DNA from: Nocardioides sp.
GTDB lineage: Bacteria; Actinomycetota; Actinomycetes; Propionibacteriales; Nocardioidaceae
Assembly (NCBI RefSeq): GCF_014360585.1
Contig: NZ_JACIXG010000002.1
Span: forward strand, 1 to 64,000
Reading direction: 5' to 3'
DNA: 64,000 nucleotides
Below, in pieces: positions 46,085-53,547 of this stretch (position 1 is its first letter; every line of letters begins with the position of its first letter). Under the pieces are notes generated by a model that ran no database searches, was not told where the DNA came from, and was given only the letters and a program-made list of their open reading frames with translations. The position numbers and the translations under genes were made by a program.

Positions 46085-47380
46085 ATGACCACCACTCGCC
46101 GTGTCGCCATCGTGGGCGGCAACCGTATTCCTTTCGCCCGCTCCAACGGCGCATACGCGACCGCGTCCAACCAGGAGATGTTCACCGCCGTCCTCGACGG
46201 TCTCGCCGCTCGCTTCGGCCTGGAGGGCGAGCGCATCGGTGAGGTCGCCTCCGGCGCGGTGCTCAAGCACTCGCGCGACTTCAACCTGACCCGCGAGTCC
46301 GTGCTCGGCTCCAAGCTGGCTCCTGAGACGGCGGCCGTCGACCTCCAGCAGGCCTGCGGCACCGGCCTCCAGGCGGCGACCTACATCGCCAACAAGATCG
46401 CGCTCGGCCAGATCGAGTCCGGCATCGCCGGCGGCACCGACACCACCTCCGACGCGCCGATCGCGCTGGGCGAGAAGCTCCGCAAGATCCTGCTCGAGGC
46501 CAACCGCGCCAAGAGCAACGTCGACCGCGTGAAGGCGTTCGCCAAGCTCCGCCCGGCCGACGTCATCCCCAACATCCCGGCCAACGTCGAGCCGCGCACC
46601 AAGCTCTCCATGGGTGAGCACGCCGCGCTGACCGCGCAGGAGTGGGGCATCACCCGCGAGGCCCAGGACGAGCTGGCGGCCGCGTCCCACCAGAAGCTGG
46701 GCGCTGCGTACGAGGCCGGCTGGTTCGAGGACCAGATCACCCCGTTCCGTGGCCTGGAGAAGGACAACAACCTCCGTCCGGGCTCGACCGTGGAGAAGCT
46801 CTCGACCCTCAAGCCCGTCTTCGGGGCAAAGGGCGAGAACCCGACCATGACGGCCGGCAACTCGACGCCGCTGACCGACGGTGCCTCCGCCGTGCTCTTC
46901 GCGAGCGAGGAGTGGGCCATGGCCAAGAACCTTCCGGTCCTGGCCTACTTCGTCGACGCCGAGGTCGCCGCTGTCGACTACGTCGCCGGTGGTGAGGGCC
47001 TGCTGATGGCGCCCGCCTACGCCGTCCCGCGCCTGCTCGCCCGCAACGGCCTGACCTTCGACGACTTCGACTTCTTCGAGATCCACGAGGCCTTCGCCTC
47101 CCAGGTCCTCTCGACCCTCGCCGCCTGGGAGTCCCCGGACTTCTGCAAGGACAAGCTCGGCCTCGACGCCCCGCTCGGCACCGTCCCGCGCGAGAAGCTC
47201 AACGTCAAGGGCTCCAGCCTGGCGGCCGGCCACCCCTTCGCCGCCACCGGCGGCCGGATCATCAACAACCTCGCCAAGCTGCTCGACGAGAAGGCTGCGT
47301 CGACCGGTGAGGGTGCCCGCGGCCTGATCTCCATCTGCGCCGCCGGCGGCCAGGGCGTAGTGGCCATCCTGGAGAAGTAG
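46085..47380 (+). CDS. Acetyl-CoA C-acetyltransferase (FadI/FadA2-like)
   Basis: VDLQQACGTGLQAATYIANKIALGQIESGIAGG; HPFAATGGRIINNL; SICAAGGQGVVAILEK. Confidence 0.92.
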   Translation: MTTTRRVAIVGGNRIPFARSNGAYATASNQEMFTAVLDGLAARFGLEGERIGEVASGAVLKHSRDFNLTRESVLGSKLAPETAAVDLQQACGTGLQAATYIANKIALGQIESGIAGGTDTTSDAPIALGEKLRKILLEANRAKSNVDRVKAFAKLRPADVIPNIPANVEPRTKLSMGEHAALTAQEWGITREAQDELAAASHQKLGAAYEAGWFEDQITPFRGLEKDNNLRPGSTVEKLSTLKPVFGAKGENPTMTAGNSTPLTDGASAVLFASEEWAMAKNLPVLAYFVDAEVAAVDYVAGGEGLLMAPAYAVPRLLARNGLTFDDFDFFEIHEAFASQVLSTLAAWESPDFCKDKLGLDAPLGTVPREKLNVKGSSLAAGHPFAATGGRIINNLAKLLDEKAASTGEGARGLISICAAGGQGVVAILEK

Positions 47381-47397: not shown

Positions 47398-47425
47398 GCG
47401 GCGCCCGGCTCCTGCCGGGCGCCGC
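47398..47425 (+). terminator. Terminator-like hairpin after the thiolase
   Basis: GCGGCGCCCGGC tcct GCCGGGCGCCGC, perfect 12-bp stem, 18 nt after stop. Confidence 0.75.
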
Positions 47426-47436
47426 AGTCATTCCCG

Positions 47437-47648
47437 CCGAGTCGGTAGTTGTGGCGTACCGAGTCGTTAGTTCTGGCCGCCGAGACCGTAGTTGTGGCGT
47501 GCCGAGTCGGTAGATGTGGGCGGCGAGTGGGTAGTTATGGGCGACGAAAGTCGAGTTTCGTCGCCCATAACTACCCACTCGACACGCCAGAACTACCGAT
47601 TCGGCGCGCCGAAGGTGCGGTTTCGGCACGCCAGAAGTGCGGTTTCGG
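47437..47648. repeat. Head-to-head array of nine ~22-bp repeats with a 26-bp perfect palindromic junction
   Basis: Direct units at 47437, 47459, 47480, 47502, 47524 (consensus CCGAGTCGGTAGTTNTGGCGNN); inverted units to 47581, 47604, 47626, 47648; stem 47524-47549/47556-47581 perfect, loop GTCGAG. Confidence 0.92.
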
Positions 47649-53442: not shown

Positions 53443-53456
53443 GTTGCCGTTTTGAG

Positions 53457-53531
53457 TGCCGAGTCGGCGCATCCGCCCCCTCTCGCTCGCTTCGCTTCGC
53501 GAGGCACGGGGGCAGATCCGCCGACTCGGCA
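53457..53531. repeat. CCGAGTCGG-anchored intergenic inverted repeat (site C)
   Basis: TGCCGAGTCGGCG / CGCCGACTCGGCA perfect 13 bp, extended by partially paired CCCCC/GGGGG and CTCGC/GCGAG inner stems. Confidence 0.85.
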
Positions 53532-53547
53532 GACCTGGGGGCAGGCT

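Follow-up and report, generated by a model that had tools for sequence, protein, structure and literature searches.

Two kinds of known element are the closest to those reported here. REP, BIME and REPIN elements (E. coli, Pseudomonas and others) are short units containing a palindrome that are present in tens of intergenic copies and form head-to-head groups; they are found at 3' ends and in convergent gaps, as species-specific families (PMC3733652, PMC3116915). The CGTC-tagged REPs of alphaproteobacteria are reported to lack a dedicated transposase (PMC3733652). Nocardioides goes unmentioned in the main text of a 2025 survey of REPs (PMC12306157). The second kind is the intrinsic terminator. 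Hairpin clusters that lack U-tracts have been reported as terminators (PMC8355165), and 3' ends in Streptomyces avermitilis commonly lack a U-rich motif (PMC8780764).

In this report, we describe tandem arrays of short, helically phased units at gene ends in Nocardioides. They form a REP/BIME-like system of actinobacteria that lacks the usual transposase and whose several sequence families share both their site and their two-turn layout. A long-standing question thereby becomes directly testable, namely whether such repeats persist because they function at gene ends or are simply tolerated in that position. The arrays are also candidate strong bidirectional terminators for high-GC hosts.

Anatomy of the array

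The array under study lies between convergent thiolase and TetR genes in the window, i.e., the whole 64,000-nucleotide stretch of Nocardioides sp. DNA that was analyzed. It comprises nine units of 21-22 bp, five direct and four inverted, and a degenerate tenth at the center. The scores below are from a unit matrix built from units of the same genome, with a threshold of 14.

46085-47380, + strand: thiolase gene (ORF; Pfam Thiolase_N, Thiolase_C), 3' end towards the array
47398-47425, + strand: plain GC hairpin past the thiolase stop, a 12-bp perfect inverted repeat
47437-47458, + strand: direct unit 1, score 28.6
47459-47479, + strand: direct unit 2, score 25.4
47480-47501, + strand: direct unit 3, score 27.2
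47502-47522, + strand: direct unit 4, score 24.2
47523-47542, + strand: direct unit 5, which forms the outer stretch of the central stem, score 18.8
47524-47581, no strand: central hairpin, 26-bp stem; covariance model match at 47522-47583, E 7.8e-19
47543-47562, no strand: degenerate self-palindromic central unit, matching the unit matrix
47563-47582, - strand: inverted unit 1, score 21.3
47585-47604, - strand: inverted unit 2, score 29.4
47607-47626, - strand: inverted unit 3, score 17.7
47629-47648, - strand: inverted unit 4, score 23.8; ends 6 bp short of the TetR stop codon
47655-48368, - strand: TetR-type regulator (Pfam TetR_N; start codon uncertain), convergent with the thiolase gene

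The stem pairs perfectly over exactly 26 bp (47524-47549 with 47556-47581) and closes on the loop GTCGAG (47550-47555). The original prediction, made from the sequence of the locus, had correctly described the nine units, this stem and loop, the GC hairpin, and the flanking thiolase (stop 47380, + strand) and TetR (stop 47655, - strand) genes; the central tenth unit is new. The direct units start, as stated there, at 47437, 47459, 47480 and 47502, and the fifth starts at 47523/4. The inverted units end at 47582, 47604, 47626 and 47648, and the first of these ends had been placed at 47581. The consensus first proposed, CCGAGTCGG, occurs exactly in only two of the nine units, and we replace it with CCGARWCNGTAGTTNTGGCG.

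At the heart of the stem, positions 47543-47562 are a degenerate unit turned self-palindromic, and the phase of the array is therefore unbroken through its center. The hairpin core, GGGCGACGAAA-n6-TTTCGTCGCCC, is conserved across copies. At a matrix score of at least 14, ten sites fall in the array and none elsewhere in the 64-kb window; shuffled windows yield 0-2. The predicted period of 21-22 bp extends to the whole family, which we term type A: same-strand units are spaced by 21 bp in 73 cases and by 22 bp in 39. As also predicted, units abut at this period without spacers, which rules out CRISPR; the likeness to CRISPR is limited to tandem short repeats, and the arrays differ further in their inverted halves and their dispersal at gene ends.

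Copies and taxonomic spread

A search of the window genome (G000) with the unit consensus found further arrays, and the core palindrome GACGAAA-n-TTTCGTC occurs 17 times there, compared with 0 for the reversed control. The window genome holds about 28 copies of type A; G015 has about 33, the complete genome G089 has 42 and G011 has 14. A covariance model comprising the core and the flanking half units gave 55, 65, 84 and 28 matches in these four genomes, respectively, 25 weak matches in G174, two in G001, one each in G018 and G013, and none in G020, G012, G024 or G014; because the palindrome is matched on both strands, copies are about half of matches, and all of these counts depend on models made from the clade of the window species, with several arrays lying at contig ends of the draft genome. 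The genome-wide search proposed with the original prediction thus yields tens of type A copies, mostly at gene 3' ends. That prediction had also allowed for a local duplication accident, should there be no other copies and no conserved phase; dozens of copies with their 21-22-bp spacing kept rule this out.

In a scan of GTDB (one genome per species), the core motif is confined to Nocardioides, one unrelated chance match aside, with exact occurrences in N. turkmenicus, N. albus, two N. luteus strains and Nocardioides sp. YR527. A strict two-unit pattern matched 7 of 200 congeners, a figure that gauges one consensus and not the architecture. A plasmid or phage origin was rejected, as only weak chance matches were found. 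No known Rfam RNA matched above its gathering score, the sub-threshold matches being miRNA precursors aligned to the long hairpin only, and we found no Nocardioides repeat of type A in the open-licence literature.

Position relative to genes

Genes were called by a codon-usage model trained on the window rather than taken from annotation. In G089, 22 of 27 arrays are convergent, five are codirectional and none is divergent, whereas convergent junctions make up 56 of 365 (15%) in a 400-kb stretch of that genome. A gene 3' end is faced by 49 of 55 array sides, at a median of 10 bp past the stop codon. A first, mixed set of 49 arrays gave 18 convergent cases among the 34 arrays with both neighbors (8 of 55 junctions in the window are convergent) and 62 of 82 sides facing a 3' end. 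Sides that face a gene start stay at least 49 bp away, one mis-assigned gene excepted, and in codirectional gaps the arrays sit close to the upstream stop codon. Single-direction arrays showed a suggestive, but not significant, sense orientation with respect to the closest stop codon.

In 26 of 44 convergent arrays, no more than 25 nt is left outside the array on either side, which makes the array the sole candidate 3' structure of either gene there. A separate plain hairpin is found in 4 of 25 convergent gaps with an array, compared with 41 of 69 others (p = 2e-4; 400 kb from each of four genomes, pooled); since arrays leave less room in the gap, this scarcity is supporting rather than conclusive. 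An ordinary hairpin does accompany the array at the thiolase-TetR junction and at two other loci (L005 and L013). The earlier claim that the array is not needed as the terminator of the thiolase gene is upheld at this junction, but the filled gaps and scarce hairpins elsewhere show that it is not general.

One type A array, kept in three species (L012, L037 and L080), breaks this pattern: its junction is divergent, and on one side a gene starts 58-80 bp downstream of it.

Turnover between species

The thiolase-TetR junction, whose comparison among related strains had been suggested at the outset, carries different structures by species. G001 has the GC hairpin alone and no array; G011 and G015 have type B arrays immediately past the stop, with nothing else in G015; the window species has the plain hairpin and type A. 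In Nocardioides sp. YR527 (L139, 3590-3860), types B and A are joined or nested, with hybrid units. The type B unit is CCGAGNCGTCRCTCCCGTCGG, with the center CCGAGYTGGCA..TGCCARCTCGG. At a second junction, type A in G000 gives way to type D (CCGAAGAGTCACTTACGCAGG) in G001 and to type B in both G011 and G015. A third junction has type A in G000, G015 and G089 and a plain hairpin in G001. Thus, the array layout outlives its sequence, as families are swapped by species while the same plan is kept. The unit sequence differs between families, a CCGA-like start aside. Over the few orthologous junctions compared, orthologous arrays are 68-94% alike and no closer than paralogues (66-82%), and their flanks match mostly at about 80-97%. 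G018 and G020 have purely direct 22-bp arrays, in which the long hairpin cannot form.

The window genome also holds type C arrays, whose units (GCCGAGTCGGCGCGAACTGACGAG...) measure about 31 bp, near three helical turns:

L019, 1500-1640 (G000:C73:98922): type C array
L011, 1440-1535 (G000:C72:25708): type C array

At another convergent junction of the window (53443-53547), an inverted element bounded by GCCGAGTCGGCG...CCGACTCGGC resembles type C.

Folding, covariation and period

Predicted folding energies of the window array with its neighboring hairpin are -190.8 kcal/mol (+ strand) and -169.5 kcal/mol (- strand), both far below those of shuffles (z of -16.1 and -14.8). Of the intergenic classes, the convergent one is the most structured, with medians of -0.56 and -0.63 kcal/mol per nt versus -0.35 to -0.39. 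In an alignment of 35 cores, 94% of the cells in the inner 18 bp are paired, with two-sided changes at six pairs, the clearest being C-G to U-A at the stem foot. The outer ten positions are 68% paired and do not covary; conservation of the outer CCGARWC is therefore at the level of sequence and not of a stem. For the whole 28-bp structure, mirror pairing and covariation do not exceed those of shuffles, and the core alone supports structure. In the units flanking the core, alignment columns 7 and 56 (A1) tend to have different bases (A against T) at the same unit position, which leaves the full hairpin mismatched there; at one outer position, mismatch is commoner than expected, weakly so with orthologues removed (p = 0.037). 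G.U mismatches outnumber A.C mismatches in codirectional arrays by 14 to 9, which is not significant. The sequence contains no U-tract, and a scan found no T-tailed site within the array.

The period also emerges when no motif is assumed. Self-identity was pooled by lag over every intergenic stretch 50-500 bp long within 400 kb of each genome. The top lag of convergent stretches is 21 in G001 (z 5.7) and G089 (z 8.4), and 22 in G174 (z 3.8) and G013 (z 4.8), above every shuffle in each case. G026, of another genus of the order, has no 21-22 peak and no strong repeat in its 26 convergent stretches. The unit families behind these lags differ among the tested genomes, and some families have a period of 31-32 bp; the two periods correspond to about two and three turns of B-DNA.

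Discussion

The arrays have the tens of dispersed intergenic copies and the preference for 3' ends and convergent gaps that mark REP and BIME elements. They differ in their strict 21-22-bp period without spacers, and in that families replace each other at one junction. Further, the unpaired GTAG/CGTC tag of REPs is missing: the GTAG of type A lies at the paired foot of the core stem, where its T/C position covaries, and types B and D have no GTAG. Neither RAYT (PF01797) nor another Y1 transposase was found in any of 40 genomes, with 5 of 14 controls positive, and a RAYT-driven REP is therefore not supported. Some REP genomes have lost their RAYT, and its absence is thus not an absolute criterion. 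The IS91-type Y2 transposase (PF04986) had no match, and its control likewise matched nowhere. Lacking both the unpaired tag and the RAYT, the arrays are not filed here as a REP family, although they are REP-like in distribution. From the CGTC-tagged REPs they are separated by phylum and by the tandem phased array, which the passages on those repeats do not describe (PMC3733652).

With intrinsic terminators the arrays share a stable predicted hairpin within about 10 nt past the stop codon, which can be read from both genes; unlike them, they form a dispersed repeat family of phased units, are much longer than termination needs and have no U-tract. If they are terminators, the arrays would fall in with the reported clusters of hairpins devoid of U-tracts (PMC8355165). 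We favor, at about even confidence, the interpretation that they are REP/BIME-like bidirectional 3'-end elements, and likely terminators that act without a U-tract. Units of two helical turns face inward from each stop codon to a self-complementary central unit, so that whichever gene is transcribed, a long hairpin would open its 3' RNA. The likeliest job would be bidirectional termination of transcription, together with 3'-end protection, between convergent genes; at the thiolase-TetR junction, the array could be a second, stronger or bidirectional stop beside the ordinary hairpin. The position of the arrays, their substitution for plain hairpins and the covarying core all favor RNA folding at transcript ends, and from these we infer that RNA polymerase is stopped there. 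Against a terminator stand the lack of a U-tract, the outer CCGARWC kept without pairing, the pairing of the whole 28-bp structure at no more than shuffle level, the direct-only arrays, the ordinary hairpins alongside and the non-significant G.U excess. Among the three roles originally proposed, that of terminator or RNA element is thus the one favored, and mobility by a RAYT is unsupported.

The main rival explanation, somewhat unlikely in our estimation, is that these are tolerated selfish REP-like repeats that spread by some route and survive only where they are harmless. Dispersed copies in tens per genome, species specificity and quick turnover would all be expected of such repeats, as would the joined or nested families at L139, and REPs elsewhere also favor convergent and codirectional gaps (PMC3733652). 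However, no Y1/RAYT transposase accompanies the arrays in the 40 genomes, though this absence alone is not decisive, recent identical copies were not seen in the compared set, different families reach one plan at the same junction, and codirectional arrays hug the upstream stop codon rather than lying anywhere.

That the layout is constant while the repeat sequence changes by species suggests that the layout itself has a function at gene ends, most likely that of halting transcription from both sides. A broader, rather doubtful proposal is that the arrays mark a genus-wide boundary for convergent transcription, in which the phased inward-facing layout would be selected and the unit sequence replaceable, the array possibly being read by a protein or gyrase on one DNA face as well as through RNA folding.

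Recognition of the DNA alone is unlikely as the full explanation. Here, phased units containing CCGA would be bound on a single helix face by a protein or gyrase, which would relieve positive supercoils, or obstruct RNA polymerase, where genes converge. Gyrase binding is known for the BIMEs of E. coli, and the periods near two and three turns, the conserved outer motif that does not pair and the direct arrays without a long hairpin all fit this idea. The variation of the unit sequence by family, its CCGA-like start aside, is hard on a specific binder, and the compensatory changes in the core stem also argue against it. Nonetheless, recognition at the DNA level may contribute, as argued by the phasing to the helix, the conserved motif that does not pair and the purely direct 22-bp arrays. 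Quite improbably, the arrays are a by-product of replication, in which hairpin-templated slippage and template switching lengthen and symmetrize palindromes where selection permits; this would account for exact 22-bp direct arrays, near-perfect arms and rapid in-place change, but leaves unexplained both the consensus shared at dozens of unrelated loci and the strong enrichment in convergent over divergent and codirectional gaps.

The arrays also bear on genome assembly. Contigs C36, C37, C59, C60, C77 and C79 (the last at both ends) of the draft window genome start or end in or beside arrays, as do C104, C115, C147 and C157. The long hairpins probably disrupted assembly or sequencing at these points, and the arrays may account for the breaks of this draft assembly at such sites.
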